Positions 27,917-42,627 of a stretch of DNA of 44,960 nucleotides are shown here, piece by piece. The position numbers and the translations under genes are program-made. The stretch is from Labilithrix sp. (GTDB taxonomy: Bacteria > Myxococcota_A > Polyangia > Polyangiales > Polyangiaceae), in NCBI GenBank assembly GCA_019637105.1, contig JAHBWF010000051.1, forward strand, positions 1 through 44,960, given 5' to 3'. Below the pieces are notes generated by a model. That model made no database searches, was not told where the DNA came from, and saw nothing but the letters and a program-made list of their open reading frames with translations. Every line of letters starts with the position of its first letter. Position 1 is the stretch's first letter.

Positions 27917-27960
27917 AAACCCATGGCGAAAACTCTTCACGCGATCCATCGTTTAGGTAA

Positions 27961-27980
27961 ACGCGAACGACAATTCGCAC
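27961..27980. promoter_or_regulatory. Degenerate second copy of the palindrome, candidate operator site 2
   Basis: ACGCGAACGACAATTCGCAC shares 14 of 20 positions with site 1, including both GCGAA and TTCGC half-sites with the same six-base spacer. Its centre is 64 bp downstream, about six helical turns, so both sites face the same side of the DNA. A TAGGTA box (27954-27959) lies between them and could be the -10. Confidence 0.5.
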
Positions 27981-28012
27981 TGACGAGCTTGACAGGTTGG
28001 AGGGTCGCATTC

Positions 28013-28894
28013 GTGAGACGCATCGCTCATCTCTCCGACGTTCACATCCTCGACGCCCGCGCGGGCACGCGACGCGCGCGCTACCGCTTCACCACCAAGC
28101 TCGTGAGCATCGGCCAGCGCGCCGTCGATCCTCACGCCCGCAGCCGGAAGCTCGCGCGCGCGCTGCGGGCGGCGAAGGAGCAGGGCGCCGATCACGTCGT
28201 GATCTCCGGCGACCTCACCGAGGTGGGTGCAGACGCCGAGTTCGAGCAGTTCGCGGAGGTCCTCCACGACGCGAGGCTCCCGGCCGACAGCGTCACGCTG
28301 GTCCCCGGGAACCACGACGCGTACACGAACGGCGACGGCTGGGCGCGGGCGATGCGCGGTCCCTTGGCCGCCTTCGCGGCCTCGAGCGCCGCGGCGCCCG
28401 GCAAGGTCGTGGAGCGAGGCGACGTCGTCTTCCTCCCGATCGACACGACGCGGTTCCAGACCATCGCGTGGTCGGGCGGCGTCTTCACGAAGGAGACCGC
28501 GGCCGCCGTCGAGCGTCGGATGACCGATCCGGCGTTCCGCGACAAGGCGATGGTGCTCGTGGTCCACCACCCGCCGTTTCATCCGGTGAAGGCGATGAAG
28601 TGGATCGACGGGCTGCGCGGCGGCGCGAACGTCCTCGATCTGCTCGCGCGCCACCCGCGGCTCCAGCTGCTCCACGGCCACCTGCACCGGATCTTCAACC
28701 ACATCCTGGCGACGTCGAGCGCCGTCGGGGCGGCGGTCGGCCTGCGCCCCAAGACGGACGCGTCCGACGCGCCGACCCGCCTGTTCGGCGCGCCGGCGAC
28801 GTGCGACGGGCCCGATGGAGAAGACGCCGCGCCGGCGCCGAAGCTCCGCTTCTACGACGTCGCCGACGGCGCGCTCCACGCTCTTTGCGGCTGA
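28013..28894 (+). CDS. Metallophosphoesterase (calcineurin-like)
   Basis: The product has 293 residues from the GTG at 28013, which has a GGAGGG site eight bases upstream. An in-frame ATG at 27923 would add 30 residues before the domain and would cover the second palindrome, so it is less likely. Metal-binding motifs run in family order: D9-x-H11 in LSDVHILD, GDLTEVG, GNHD, VVHHPPFHP and HGHLHR. These enzymes cleave phosphodiester or phosphomonoester bonds with two metal ions. The order resembles the cyclic-nucleotide or Icc/CpdA-like branch, so cAMP-type or other diester substrates are possible. The C-terminus ends in an acidic and Pro-rich stretch. The upstream palindromes suggest this gene is specifically regulated. 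Confidence 0.8.
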   Translation: MRRIAHLSDVHILDARAGTRRARYRFTTKLVSIGQRAVDPHARSRKLARALRAAKEQGADHVVISGDLTEVGADAEFEQFAEVLHDARLPADSVTLVPGNHDAYTNGDGWARAMRGPLAAFAASSAAAPGKVVERGDVVFLPIDTTRFQTIAWSGGVFTKETAAAVERRMTDPAFRDKAMVLVVHHPPFHPVKAMKWIDGLRGGANVLDLLARHPRLQLLHGHLHRIFNHILATSSAVGAAVGLRPKTDASDAPTRLFGAPATCDGPDGEDAAPAPKLRFYDVADGALHALCG

Positions 28895-28960
28895 CGGCTC
28901 CTCGCGGCCGACGGCTCCTCGCGGCCGACGGCTCCTCGCGGCCGACGGCTCTCTGCGGCC
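28893..28960 (+). repeat. 17-bp tandem repeat starting at the metallophosphoesterase stop
   Basis: GACGGCTCCTCGCGGCC occurs three times exactly (28893-28943) and once with two changes (28944-28960). A decayed copy (CACGCTCTTTGCGGCT) forms the gene's last codons. The remaining gap to 29154 is plain GC-rich DNA with a TAGTCT box at its end. Confidence 0.85.
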
Positions 28961-29141
28961 GTGGGCGCCGCGGCGTGCGAGGCTCCGGCGCGCGTGATGC
29001 GCGCCGGGCGGACCGGCGACGCCGGAGCCGGCCCGCGAAAAGGCGGGAGGGCGCGCGGGCCGCCCGCGGGCGTCCGACATCGCCACACGGATCGCCCCCC
29101 GTCCGGCGAGATACGGGGCGAAAACGGGCGCCGAGTTCCGC

Positions 29142-29154: not shown

Positions 29155-30114
29155 ATGGCGATTTTCGCGATCGGCGACGTCCACGGGTGCGCCGACGAGC
29201 TGGAGGAGCTGCTCGGAATGCTCCCGCTCGACGACGGCTCGACCGTCGTGATGCTCGGCGACTACATCGATCGCGGACCCTACTCGCGGCGCGTGCTCGA
29301 GACGTTGATCGAGTGGAAATCGAAGCACAATATCGTGACCCTCTCGGGCAACCACGAGGAGATGCTCCGCGAGTTCCTCGACGGATCGAACCCGCAGCGC
29401 GTGGCGCGCTTCATCCTCAACGGCGGCTCGAGCACGCTCGCCGACTTCGCCGACGACCACGGCGAGTGGGTCATCCCGAGCGCGCACGTGAGGTTCCTCG
29501 AGGAGCTGAAGCTCTGGCACGAGACCGACGAGCACTTCTTCGTCCACGCGGGCGTGCCCGACATCTCCCTCAAGGAGCTGGATCCCGTCCGCGACCGCGA
29601 CGAGCTGCTCTGGATCCGCCGCGCGTTCATCAGCAGCACGCGGCGCTGGGAGAAGCGCATCGTCCACGGTCACACGCCGGTGAACGCCGTCGAGGTCAGC
29701 GCCTCGCGCATCAACGTCGACACGGCGTGCGCCTACGGCGGCTTCCTCACCGCCATCGAGCTGCCGAGCCACCGCATCTACAGCGTCCCGCGCAAGACCG
29801 GCCTCCGCCCGGCGTTCCTCCGCGACAAGGCCTCGCGCCGCGCGGCGGTCCGCTTCCTCGGCTCGGTCCCGGTGAAGATCCACCACGAGCGCCACGGCGA
29901 GCTCAAGCTCGAGACCTTGAACTACAGCGAGATCGGCATGCTCCTCTGGTCGCCCGAAGAGGCCGACCGCACGAAGCAGCTCCTCGAGCAGGGCGAGGCC
30001 GTCAAGGGCACGGTCGGCGACGGCTGGCAGGTCCCGTTCAGCGCCCGCGTGGTCCACTCGCGCAAGCAAAGCGACGGCTGGCAATACGGCCTCGCGGTCG
30101 ATCTCGAGGGCTGA
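29155..30114 (+). CDS. PPP-family protein phosphatase fused to a PilZ-like domain
   Basis: The product has 319 residues. Residues 1-215 form a PPP-type phosphatase: GDVHG (7-11), GDYIDRG (35-41), GNHE (65-68), HAG (131-133) and HGH (171-173), the metal- and phosphate-binding set of bacterial PPP enzymes such as PrpA or bis(5'-nucleosyl)-tetraphosphatase relatives. Residues 225-319 look like a PilZ domain: R229-AAV-R233 matches the RxxxR c-di-GMP motif and N256-YSEI-G261 matches (D/N)xSxxG 22 residues later. Strands follow, ending FSARVV and WQYGLAVDLEG. A cytosolic phosphatase controlled by c-di-GMP is the simplest reading; target proteins are unknown. The short-leader TAGTCT box fixes the ATG at 29155. 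Confidence 0.8.
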   Translation: MAIFAIGDVHGCADELEELLGMLPLDDGSTVVMLGDYIDRGPYSRRVLETLIEWKSKHNIVTLSGNHEEMLREFLDGSNPQRVARFILNGGSSTLADFADDHGEWVIPSAHVRFLEELKLWHETDEHFFVHAGVPDISLKELDPVRDRDELLWIRRAFISSTRRWEKRIVHGHTPVNAVEVSASRINVDTACAYGGFLTAIELPSHRIYSVPRKTGLRPAFLRDKASRRAAVRFLGSVPVKIHHERHGELKLETLNYSEIGMLLWSPEEADRTKQLLEQGEAVKGTVGDGWQVPFSARVVHSRKQSDGWQYGLAVDLEG

Positions 30115-30221: not shown

Positions 30222-31598
30222 TCAGCGGGTGAGCTTCGTCGCCGAGAGGAGCGCGACGAGCATGTCGGCCTGCTCCTGGGTGGCGAAGTCGTGCGTGTCG
30301 CGGGCGAGCAGCTGCATCGAGCGCGCGTGGAGCTCGGCGATCTTCCGGAGCCCGCCCGCGCGCGAGACGTCGTCGCCGACGAAGGCGCGGTCGAGGCGGC
30401 GCAGCGTCGCCATCGCCGACGCGTACGCGATGACGTCGCCGTGGCGCGACTTGGCGATGCGCTCGATGTCGTCGTCGTAGACGCACGGCACCTCGGCCGT
30501 GAACTCGCGCGGGCCGCCCCAGGACAGGTCGTCGACGTGCGCGGTGACGGTGAACGTGAACTCCTCCCCGGGCACCCACGCCGGCACGCTGACGCGGAGC
30601 ATCTCGGTCCGCGCCTCGCCCGCGCGGACGTTGCCGAGCACGAGGTCGCCGGCGTCGAGCCGCCAGCGGGCCTCTCCGCCGGACGCCTCGAGGACGTGCG
30701 AAGGCGCCGGCGTCCCCTGGAACGTGAGCCGGACGCTCCGGAAGGTCGTCACGCCGGCGGCGGGGATCGCCGCGCGCACGGCGTCCGCGCGCTCGGCGCG
30801 GTCCTCCTCGCCCTCGCCGGTGGTCGACACGCTCGCGACCTGGACGCCCCGCTGCGCGAGGCGCGCGACCTCGGCGATCTCGTCGGGCGCGAGCGCGCGA
30901 TCGGTGAGCAAGAGCACCCGCTGCGTGACCTTGCCCGTCGCGACGGCCTTGCGGGCCGCCGCGAGCGCGGCCGGCACGTCGCGACGGGCCGCGCCTGCGC
31001 GCGCGCGGAAGTGGGTCCGCAACGCGGCGCCGATCATCGAGCGGTGCGAGGCGGGCATCGGCGGCACGACGGTGCGCGCCCCGCGGACGTCGAGGATCGC
31101 GACGCGATCGCGCCCGGCCAGCTGATCGAGCGCGACGTCGACGAGCGCGGCGGTGTCCGGGCCTTCGCCGTCGATCACGATCGCGACGTTCTCGCCCCAG
31201 CGCGCCGCGCCCTCCGCGGCCGGCGCGATCACGTCGACGCGCATCAGGACCTCGCCGCCCCACGACGGCACGCGCGTGTCGCTCGGGCGGAGGACGATGG
31301 CGAGCCCCGAGGTCGCCAGCACGTGCGGGCGGCTCGTCTCGGTGAAGCGACCGTCGCGCGGGAGGATGAACCCGATCGGCGCGCGCCACGGCTCGTCGGG
31401 ATCGCGCGAGACGACGCGCGAGGGGACGTCGTCGCGATCGTGGAACTCGAGCCCGTTCGCCGTCATCACCGAGGCGCCGCGCGCGCCGGTCTCGGGGAAG
31501 TAGAACGTGCCGTCCTTGGCGAGGTAGGGGCGCTCGCAGCCGCCGATCGTCAGCGCCGAAGCGACCACGGCGAACGTGAGGGCCAGCGAGCGAGCCAC
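30222..31598 (-). CDS. VWA-like lipoprotein without a canonical metal site
   Basis: The product has 458 residues from the GTG at 31598. A signal peptide ends at the lipobox IGGC (Cys21). The N-terminal part is strand-rich. Residues about 125-270 look like a von Willebrand A fold: VAIVIDGEGPDTAALVDVALDQL, DRVAILDVRG, a central helix-rich stretch with ALAAARKAVATGKVTQRVLLLTDRAL, then VQVASVSTTGEG. The first strand lacks the DxSxS metal-ion site and reads DGEGPD, so it probably binds ligands without the usual MIDAS metal. The C-terminal region contains a beta domain and helices. The GTG start is supported by TATAAT on the minus strand six bases upstream. It lies downstream of the SNF2 gene on the same strand. 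Confidence 0.68.
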   Translation of the reverse strand: MARSLALTFAVVASALTIGGCERPYLAKDGTFYFPETGARGASVMTANGLEFHDRDDVPSRVVSRDPDEPWRAPIGFILPRDGRFTETSRPHVLATSGLAIVLRPSDTRVPSWGGEVLMRVDVIAPAAEGAARWGENVAIVIDGEGPDTAALVDVALDQLAGRDRVAILDVRGARTVVPPMPASHRSMIGAALRTHFRARAGAARRDVPAALAAARKAVATGKVTQRVLLLTDRALAPDEIAEVARLAQRGVQVASVSTTGEGEEDRAERADAVRAAIPAAGVTTFRSVRLTFQGTPAPSHVLEASGGEARWRLDAGDLVLGNVRAGEARTEMLRVSVPAWVPGEEFTFTVTAHVDDLSWGGPREFTAEVPCVYDDDIERIAKSRHGDVIAYASAMATLRRLDRAFVGDDVSRAGGLRKIAELHARSMQLLARDTHDFATQEQADMLVALLSATKLTR

Positions 31599-31604
31599 GC
31601 CCTC

Positions 31605-31610
31605 ATTATA
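31605..31610 (-). promoter_or_regulatory. Perfect -10 box (TATAAT) six bases before a GTG start
   Basis: TATAAT on the minus strand ends six bases before the GTG at 31598. A consensus -10 in such GC-rich DNA is unlikely by chance and implies a leaderless mRNA starting at the GTG. No -35 is visible. Confidence 0.6.
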
Positions 31611-31721
31611 CGCGCGCGGCGCGCGCAGGCTGCCGCGCGCCGCGAAAAGGAGTGGGACCCGCTCACACGCGTTGCACGACGCCACGGGGCGTCACGCGAC
31701 GATTACAGCGGCGGCTCGCCG

Positions 31722-40158: not shown

Positions 40159-42627
40159 TCACTTCAGGTAGATCGGGTTCGTGAAGGCCATCGGCTGGAT
40201 CGGCATGAACGGGAGCGCGTCGTCCATCAGGCGCTCTCCGCGGACGATCGCGATCACCCAGCGCGCGTTCGCGGGCGGCCGGAGCGCCAGCTCGGCCTCG
40301 AAGCGGAGCGTGCGCGCCTCGGCCTCGTCGAGAGCGCCCGAGCCCTTCTTCATGTCGGTCGGCCGCGGGGCGACCGCGCTCTTGAAGAGCGACACCGTGG
40401 GGGACGGCGGGCCGCCGGCGGACTCCGCCGGCGCGATCGGGACGCCGGCGATGACCTCGACCGACGTGACGTCGATCCACGGGGCGGCGCGGACGCGGAT
40501 CCTCCCCCCGAGCGGGACGCCGCTCGGCAGCTCGTCGCCCGGCCTCGCCGCGCGCCCGGACTCGGTGAGCTCCAGCTCGAGGATCGGGCCGCTCGAGACG
40601 AAGCTCCGCCCCTTCTTCAGCGCGGCCACGACCTCCCGGGTGTCGATCGGGAGCCCGGTGTCGCCGGCCGCGCGCGGGTCGAGCAGCGCGTAGGTGCGCG
40701 GGTAGCCCGCCCACTGGTACTGGATGCGGTGGGAGTCGCTCGACCCCGTCGCGGCGATCCGCTTGCCGAAGTTGAGGAGCGCAAACCAGTCTTCCATCAC
40801 CCGCTCGGTCAGCTCGCGCTTCGACAGCTCGTAGCCGTTGTAGACCTCGATCGTGTCGAAGGCCGCGATGGCCGGCGCGCGCGCGCTCTTCGGGTCCAGG
40901 TTGATGATGCTGAAGTGGCCGATGTTCTGCGCCATCCGCGGGTGGTTCACCTGCACGACGCGCGACGGGTCGCTCCTCCGCGCGGCCGCGACGAGGGCGT
41001 TCACGGTGGTCCCTTTGTAGGGCGGGACGCCGGCGCCGACGGTGTACGGGAAGACGCCGAAGTGCCCGAACCGCGGGTTGTACGTGGTGACCTCGACGCC
41101 GGGCACGTGCGCGAGCTGTTTGCCGATGCGCAGGACCTCGAGCGCCGGCGCGTAGTCGCCGACCATGTTGTGCTCCGTCGGGACGGCGAAATCGACGCCC
41201 GCCGAGACGAGCGAGAGCACGCGGTCCTCGGGCGTGACGGGGCTGTCGAAGCTCGGGCGCGCGTGCACGTGGACGTCGCAGCCGACCATCCCCGGCGTGG
41301 GCACGACGTGCCGGGGAGAGAGCTCGATCGCCTTCAGGTGCCCGCTCGTGATGTCGACGACCTGCGAGTCGATGCTCCACTCGATCCCCTTCGTCGCCGC
41401 GACGCGGTAGCGGCCCGCCGGGAGCGGCGTCTGCACCTCCCCCTCGAGGATGTCCATCAGCGGCCCCGCCCCCGACGCGCGGTAGTCCGGGCCGAAGCTC
41501 GGATCGATCGTCCCGTCGATCCCCTTGACGATGAGGCGCGCGATGAGCGGCTGACCGGTGTCGCCGTCGGTCACCTTCACGTGGAGCTCGCCGCCCGCGG
41601 AGACGTCGAGCTTCAGGTCCCACGGCGTCCCGGGGACGAAGCGCACCGGCGCGCTCGTGTGCACGGCCTCGAGCGCGGCGAACCACTGGCGCGCGATCGT
41701 CGGGGCCTCGATCGTGAAGCGACCGTCCGGGTCGGCGAGCGCGCGGATGCGCGGGTGCCCGTCCTCGTCGAGCGCGATCACGTGCGCGCGCTCGCGCGTC
41801 CCCGTCACGACGCCCGTGACCTTCGCGACGTTCATCCGCGAGAGCTGGTAGAGCCGGCCCCACAGCGCCTGGCTCGACGCGCCGACGAGGATCGCGATGT
41901 CGAGGCGCGCCGGTCTCCCCGCGGCCGCGCCCTTCGCGCGCTCGGGCGCCTGCTCCGTGCGCGCGGACACGACGAGGCGCGGTCGAGCGCCGGGCTGGCT
42001 CGTGTCCGGCTCGAGCTCGGTGATCGAGAGCGGCCCCTGCCCGGACAAGAGCGCGAACGGGTGGATCTCGTCGTCGAGCACGACCGATCGCGCCTGCATG
42101 TTCGCGACGTCGCCGATCTCGCCGACGCCGGGGACGTACACGGTGCGGCCCTCGGGCGCGAGGCCGAAGCGCAGCGCGTAGGTGTGGTCCGAGCTCCCCG
42201 CCTCGTGCGTCACGCCGAGGCTCGCCGTCAGGAGATCGGTGGCCGGATCCATCCGGAGCTCGAGCGTCCCCGTCGCGCGCTCGTCGCCGAGCTCGATCGG
42301 GAACTCGCCGATGAGGGTCGACTTGTCCTTGACGTGGACGTCGGCGCGGCGCATCGCGAGGGGCCGCTCGATCCCGTCGACGACGAGCGACATCTCGACG
42401 TCGAGACGGCTCCGCTCGTCGCGGGTCACGACCTCCAGGCGGCCGGCGGTCGGGGAGAGCGTGTAGAGCGCCGCGGCGCCGCTCAGCGCCGTGACGTCGA
42501 CCGTGCGCGCCACCACGGCGAGGGTGCGCCGCCCGCGCTGCGCCCCGAACGAGAGCGCGAGCGCGACGAGCGCCGCGACGATGGCGACGCCGAAGAGGTC
42601 CCGGCGGGGTGTCGCTTCCCTCTGCAC
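40159..42627 (-). CDS. CehA/McbA-type metallohydrolase (PHP-like), membrane-anchored
   Basis: The product has 822 residues from a GTG. An N-terminal hydrophobic segment (about 11-28) suggests a membrane anchor or signal. Residues 30-440 are mostly beta-rich and look like carbohydrate-binding or Ig-like modules (YRVAATKGIEW, GELHVKVTDGDTGQPLIARL). The catalytic part starts at GCDVHVHARPSFDSP (H453, H455), then AGVDFAVPTEHN, VNHPRM, IEVYNGYE and ATGSSDSHRIQYQWAG, matching the PHP-type fold of CehA/McbA enzymes that hydrolyse carbamate or phosphate esters with metals. It ends with a beta domain. It is probably active in the periplasm or at the cell surface; the substrate is unknown. No cluster partner is visible. 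Confidence 0.78.
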   Translation of the reverse strand: MQREATPRRDLFGVAIVAALVALALSFGAQRGRRTLAVVARTVDVTALSGAAALYTLSPTAGRLEVVTRDERSRLDVEMSLVVDGIERPLAMRRADVHVKDKSTLIGEFPIELGDERATGTLELRMDPATDLLTASLGVTHEAGSSDHTYALRFGLAPEGRTVYVPGVGEIGDVANMQARSVVLDDEIHPFALLSGQGPLSITELEPDTSQPGARPRLVVSARTEQAPERAKGAAAGRPARLDIAILVGASSQALWGRLYQLSRMNVAKVTGVVTGTRERAHVIALDEDGHPRIRALADPDGRFTIEAPTIARQWFAALEAVHTSAPVRFVPGTPWDLKLDVSAGGELHVKVTDGDTGQPLIARLIVKGIDGTIDPSFGPDYRASGAGPLMDILEGEVQTPLPAGRYRVAATKGIEWSIDSQVVDITSGHLKAIELSPRHVVPTPGMVGCDVHVHARPSFDSPVTPEDRVLSLVSAGVDFAVPTEHNMVGDYAPALEVLRIGKQLAHVPGVEVTTYNPRFGHFGVFPYTVGAGVPPYKGTTVNALVAAARRSDPSRVVQVNHPRMAQNIGHFSIINLDPKSARAPAIAAFDTIEVYNGYELSKRELTERVMEDWFALLNFGKRIAATGSSDSHRIQYQWAGYPRTYALLDPRAAGDTGLPIDTREVVAALKKGRSFVSSGPILELELTESGRAARPGDELPSGVPLGGRIRVRAAPWIDVTSVEVIAGVPIAPAESAGGPPSPTVSLFKSAVAPRPTDMKKGSGALDEAEARTLRFEAELALRPPANARWVIAIVRGERLMDDALPFMPIQPMAFTNPIYLK

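Follow-up and report, generated by a model that had tools for sequence, protein, structure and literature searches.

Gene, domains and conserved motifs

The sequence studied is the 44,960-nucleotide contig JAHBWF010000051.1 of assembly GCA_019637105.1 from Labilithrix sp. (Polyangiaceae), the whole of which is referred to below as the window. The gene in question is a single open frame on the + strand, running from an ATG at 29155 to a stop codon ending at 30114, and its 319-residue product is described here as a PPP-type phosphatase joined to a PilZ domain on the basis of the frame, the Pfam matches and the alignment with close orthologues. The same frame is already open far upstream, as a 705-residue open reading frame beginning at 27997, and no obvious GGAGG-type site was seen by eye immediately 5' of 29155. 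Position 29155 was chosen as the start because the alignments with the close orthologues L004-L008 begin at this methionine.

Metallophos (residues 1-177, 62.7 bits, cut-off 21.5) and PilZ (PF07238, residues 228-314, 26.7 bits, cut-off 22.5) are the only Pfam families above cut-off in the protein, and the PilZ score rises to 30.1 bits when the C-terminal third is searched alone. The catalytic domain is placed at residues 1-212 (29155-29790), from the Metallophos match and from free-standing relatives that stop nearby. It contains the motifs GDVHG (residues 7-11, 29173-29187), GDYIDRG (35-41, 29257-29277), GNHE (65-68, 29347-29358), HAG (131-133, 29545-29553) and HGH (171-173, 29665-29673). An inter-domain linker (213-226, 29791-29832) leads to the PilZ domain (227-319, 29833-30111), which carries RAAVR as its RxxxR motif (229-233, 29839-29853) and NYSEIG as its (D/N)xSxxG motif (256-261, 29920-29937), with 22 residues between R233 and N256. 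All these features lie on the + strand. The original prediction had read this PPP and PilZ motif set from one frame, and each of its motifs was found at the residues given for it.

Conservation was assessed in 16 intact full-length fusion proteins from 15 genomes of five GTDB families, the other 15 proteins being 42-97% identical to the window protein. Kept outside this set were G539 (in-frame TGA), G570 (gene cut by a contig end) and L015-L020, which belong to the same group, were obtained with a different tool and in several cases are evidently genes already in the set. In the phosphatase half D8 and H10 of the first motif, D36, D39 and R40 of the second and GNHE, HAG and HGH are kept in 16/16; the PPP positions compared, 8, 10, 36, 39, 40, 66, 67, 131, 155, 171, 173 and 189, all proved invariant. 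In the PilZ half R229, R233, S258 and G261 are invariant, while position 256 is N in 13 proteins and D in three (L097, L098 and L099). Also invariant are S227, A231, F234, G236, P239, V240, T254, Y257 and E259. At position 228, 14 proteins have R, one has Q and one has K; an Arg at this place is associated with PilZ domains that bind c-di-GMP as a dimer. Invariant positions number 13 of 36 over residues 227-262 compared with 5 of 57 over 263-319, and only one of 14 in the linker.

Shuffling residues 214-319 200000 times produced such a motif pair in 438 cases, so that the pair alone is weak evidence. A chance origin is nevertheless ruled out, because all five motif positions are kept across proteins of 42-97% identity.

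The AlphaFold model predicts six C-terminal strands (239-244, 248-257, 261-266, 282-287, 293-305 and 308-316) and puts N256-G261 at the turn between strands 2 and 3; its confidence is low over residues 217-236, which include much of the linker. In fold searches, Foldseek among them, the top structural matches of the C-terminal part are PilZ domains. The earlier description of the domain as PilZ-like is thus borne out by a Pfam score above cut-off, the six-strand model and the fold matches. Two outcomes had been named as fatal to it, the lack of a six-strand barrel at residues 225-319 and the lack of conservation of RxxxR and NxSxxG among orthologues; the barrel is present in the model, and the motif residues are kept in all 16 proteins with N or D at position 256. 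Because a PilZ fold is predicted, both motifs are kept and neither of these outcomes occurred, the C-terminal domain is likely to bind cyclic di-GMP (c-di-GMP).

Distribution, origin and gene neighbourhood

Among the best 80 of 236 relatives of the window protein, the alignments of six (L015-L020) extend at least as far as residue 288. The alignment of a further one, L021, reaches residue 277, yet its frame stops at 234 residues. The six carriers are metagenome-assembled genomes titled Labilithrix, Polyangiaceae and Myxococcales. Within the order, a search with the window protein at E up to 1e-30 gave 12 matches in 11 of 184 genomes. Within the class, the A1 profile found a match in 17 of 318 genomes at E up to 1e-60. 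The match extends through PilZ in 16 of them; the remaining one is the cut gene of G570. The 16 genomes are spread over families f1, f13, f15, f22 and f72, so that the search for the fusion in other genomes, suggested with the original prediction, found it in five GTDB families of the class. The fusion gene of G539 (L134), one of these 16 genomes, has an in-frame TGA, which reflects an assembly error or decay.

Beyond the class, in the two phyla sampled, the phosphatase is found alone. Across the phylum, 78 of 377 genomes gave a match at E up to 1e-40; five matches are full length, all within the class, and the other 73 end at profile positions 212-239 of 317. In the phylum of L022 (Marinicaulis, labelled Pseudomonadota) three of 398 genomes match at E up to 1e-45 and none of the matches continues into PilZ. 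Two phyla were sampled with these cut-offs, which weaker fusions could escape.

The 13 fusion rows cluster together (91/89; 94% of bootstrap trees) in a tree of 50 phosphatase domains, where two other groups stand apart from them, the free-standing PPP proteins of the phylum (99/99) and Pnkp (100/100). A smaller tree that includes the lambda phosphatase was used for tests of grouping by the approximately unbiased test (p-AU). Grouping of the fusion rows with Pnkp was narrowly rejected (p-AU 0.030), as was grouping with ApaH (p-AU 0.026), while a clade with PrpA, PrpB and the lambda enzyme was not rejected (p-AU 0.354). The simplest reading of the distribution and the trees is that the fusion arose once and was afterwards lost from many members; transfer between families may be an alternative route.

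Upstream of the fusion gene lie genes for a TPMT-like methyltransferase, a CAP-family protein (opposite strand), a Mur ligase, an inositol monophosphatase-like protein and a metallophosphoesterase. Both the Mur ligase gene and the one for the inositol monophosphatase-like protein are also present in L015, L017 and L018; L016 has them too, as far as its contig reaches. The metallophosphoesterase gene (27923-28894) is distinct from the fusion, lies directly upstream and is on the same strand. It adjoins the fusion in L015-L017, and a 32% identical relative is found on the opposite strand in L163, from another family; it gave no match at 11 of the 15 fusion loci searched, and was not found in L018. 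At L159 a metallophosphoesterase of the 5'-nucleotidase type adjoins the fusion and does not match the upstream gene at E up to 1e-3. In L019 and L020 the fusion itself was the only one of the compared window genes to be found, and the 10 neighbours chosen at five more distant loci show no further recurring family. The upstream metallophosphoesterase is a lead and no conserved partner.

A tandem array with a 17-base unit, in four overlapping 34-base copies (28880-28964), covers the last stretch of the upstream metallophosphoesterase gene and some of the spacer between that gene and the fusion; its two-unit pattern occurs nowhere else in the genome with up to two mismatches. In G221 a gene for a Ser/Thr protein kinase (L157:7394-8722) stands tail to tail with the fusion and is a candidate partner in that genome only. 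Two long frames on the - strand of the window (30222-31685 and 40159-42627) match no Pfam family at E up to 0.01.

A candidate c-di-GMP effector and its alternatives

The protein combines an intact PPP motif set, a predicted PilZ fold and strictly conserved c-di-GMP-contact residues. From its sequence, it is probably a PPP phosphatase working as an effector of c-di-GMP. The fuller proposal, that binding of c-di-GMP switches a PPP phosphoprotein phosphatase within a single polypeptide, which arose once in some ancestor inside the class and has been kept in at least five families, appears to us evenly balanced between right and wrong. Rising c-di-GMP would be bound between the RxxxR arm, which is part of the flexible linker joining the domains, and the face of the barrel that bears (D/N)xSxxG. 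The arm would then fold onto the barrel, and the barrel would shift relative to the catalytic domain and so alter phosphatase activity or substrate access, in the direction of either activation or inhibition. The likely substrates would be phosphoproteins, most plausibly targets of the Ser/Thr kinases of the genome, with phosphotyrosine as a possibility. The genome holds at least 151 Pkinase matches (150 of 232 candidates scored), in line with the earlier remark that the lineage is rich in such kinases, together with 18 PilZ matches and 15 GGDEF matches, two of the latter apparently being pieces of one. The window protein has three matches within its own genome at E up to 1e-3, itself counted.

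An unlikely alternative, though the most probable of those considered, is that the c-di-GMP-bound PilZ domain is a targeting or docking module. At high c-di-GMP it would direct a phosphatase that is always active to its partner or location, without allostery at the active site. The linker is poorly conserved and modelled with low confidence, so that tight mechanical coupling is not evident, and the structural matches include a docking precedent in c-di-GMP-bound MapZ with CheR1 (5xly). The position of RxxxR argues for the switch instead, as in 16/16 proteins it lies at the domain junction, where a switch would be expected.

The alternative that the PPP half hydrolyses nucleotides, diadenosine tetraphosphate (Ap4A) or similar, and that the fusion ties c-di-GMP to the alarmone pool, is less probable still and turns on the type of the enzyme. 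The PPP family signature is given as GDXHG, GDXXDRG and GNH(E/D), and bacterial PPPs are described as broad in specificity, with one group being diadenosine tetraphosphatases (PMC535813). The window protein has all three family motifs. Residues 188-191 (29716-29727) are VDTA and depart by one residue from a secondary signature, (I/L/V)D(S/T)G, given as characteristic of bacterial-type PPPs (PMC535813). At this site L097, L098, L099 and L135 have VDTG or IDTG; the last residue is A or S in the 12 proteins of family f1 and G in the other families, except in L136 (A).

Structural matches of the whole-protein model include the lambda phosphatase (top Foldseek row), the Pnkp phosphatase, a putative Ap4A hydrolase, RLPH2 and ApaH, so that Ap4A hydrolase structures rank among the top matches. 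The NCBIfam models likewise favour the nucleotide side slightly, with 72.4 bits for Pnkp (cut-off 750), 69.9 for PrpE (equivalog cut-off 340) and 65.7 and 26.4 for the ApaH models (cut-offs 176 and 222.85), compared with 55.9 for PrpA and 28.3 for the other model of the PrpA/PrpB/lambda type (cut-offs 326 and 332), of which the protein is thus no equivalog. Because all these scores fall far below their cut-offs, the substrate cannot be read from the sequence.

Set against hydrolysis of Ap4A is the Asp-Arg of GDXXDRG, which is kept in 18/18 fusion rows (the 16 and two partial ones), whereas in ApaH the second Asp is replaced by a neutral residue (PMC535813). Both E. coli ApaH and a separate ApaH-type paralogue in the window genome (L002, GDLIARG) are without this Asp; the 64 rows counted as "other" in this comparison include the fusion proteins L018-L020. 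Identity with ApaH is ruled out by the kept Asp, the scores below cut-off and the rejected grouping. Bacterial Pnkp is ruled out by its score, the length of 319 residues and the tree test, and a PrpE equivalog by its score. The Pnkp model has 851 positions, in which kinase and ligase domains presumably flank the phosphatase. For the PPP half the label "Ser/Thr phosphatase" is reasonable but unproved, and the substrate is perhaps a phosphoprotein, with phosphotyrosine included, or a nucleotide.

Loss or change of the PilZ ligand, with the domain now a structural or oligomerisation part only, is very improbable: PlpA of Myxococcus xanthus keeps the conserved residues in its PilZ domain and is reported not to bind c-di-GMP (PMC8316039), but in the fusion no part of the domain is under stronger constraint than the segment contacting the ligand, in proteins down to 42% identity.

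The case of PlpA also weighs against the effector reading, as do several results of the present analysis. The Pfam score of the window PilZ domain is only modest, and 12 of the 16 proteins match Pfam PilZ at E up to 0.01 while four miss it. The A3 profile of the PilZ part matched no chain among the PDB sequences at E up to 10, no Foldseek E value for the PilZ model is below 1e-3, and PilZ is present in 7 of the 12 rows underlying the whole-protein model. The NCBIfam scores do not separate a protein phosphatase from a nucleotide hydrolase, and bootstrap support is 82-90% at the forks that place the PPP half. The fusion is sporadic: at E 1e-60 it was found in 16 of the 318 genomes from the class, and three that belong to the genus of the window gave no match at this threshold. 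The neighbourhood points to no clear partner.

Relation to known systems

No description of a PilZ-PPP fusion was found among the matches listed from the open-access literature in PubMed Central (PMC). M. xanthus has 24 PilZ proteins, among them the Ser/Thr kinase Pkn1 and the acetyltransferase PixB, and in the available text of the source the word phosphatase occurs once, naming a reagent (PMC8316039). Pkn1 resembles the window protein in being a myxobacterial PilZ domain joined to an enzyme of Ser/Thr phosphorylation; it differs in being a kinase with a PilZ domain predicted not to bind, whereas the window protein is a phosphatase with complete conserved motifs (PMC8316039). The phosphatase activity of CckA, a histidine kinase/phosphatase of Caulobacter, is switched by c-di-GMP, but through its catalytic and ATP-binding domains, without PilZ and with histidine-kinase chemistry (PMC12564702). 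The passages on phosphatases in the sources for c-di-GMP control of CckA name no PilZ-phosphatase (PMC12564702, PMC10519070). Known PilZ fusions include those with cellulose synthase, a Ser/Thr kinase, a receiver domain and an acetyltransferase (PMC11800159, PMC8316039).

PrpA and PrpB of E. coli and the NinI phosphatase of phage lambda share the PPP motifs and the fold with the window protein and appear on its side of the smaller tree, but are single-domain proteins of 218-221 residues and distant in sequence, on a stem of 2.5 changes per column. The free-standing PPP proteins L100-L124 from other classes of the phylum are about 35-40% identical over the phosphatase half and end without PilZ. 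The PilZ domains of BcsA, Alg44 and YcgR have the same fold as that of the window protein, and none is joined to a phosphatase; that of Alg44 presumably has both binding motifs as well. Both motifs are present in BcsA and YcgR (PMC12564702, PMC11800159).

The union of PPP and PilZ would wire two major bacterial signalling systems into one molecule. If control by c-di-GMP is true, the second messenger would directly govern how fast phosphate is removed within a kinase network. Dephosphorylation would then be under its direct control in a genome holding 150 or more matches to Ser/Thr kinases. The fusion would then be a small, directly assayable test protein for cross-talk between c-di-GMP and Hanks-type kinases.
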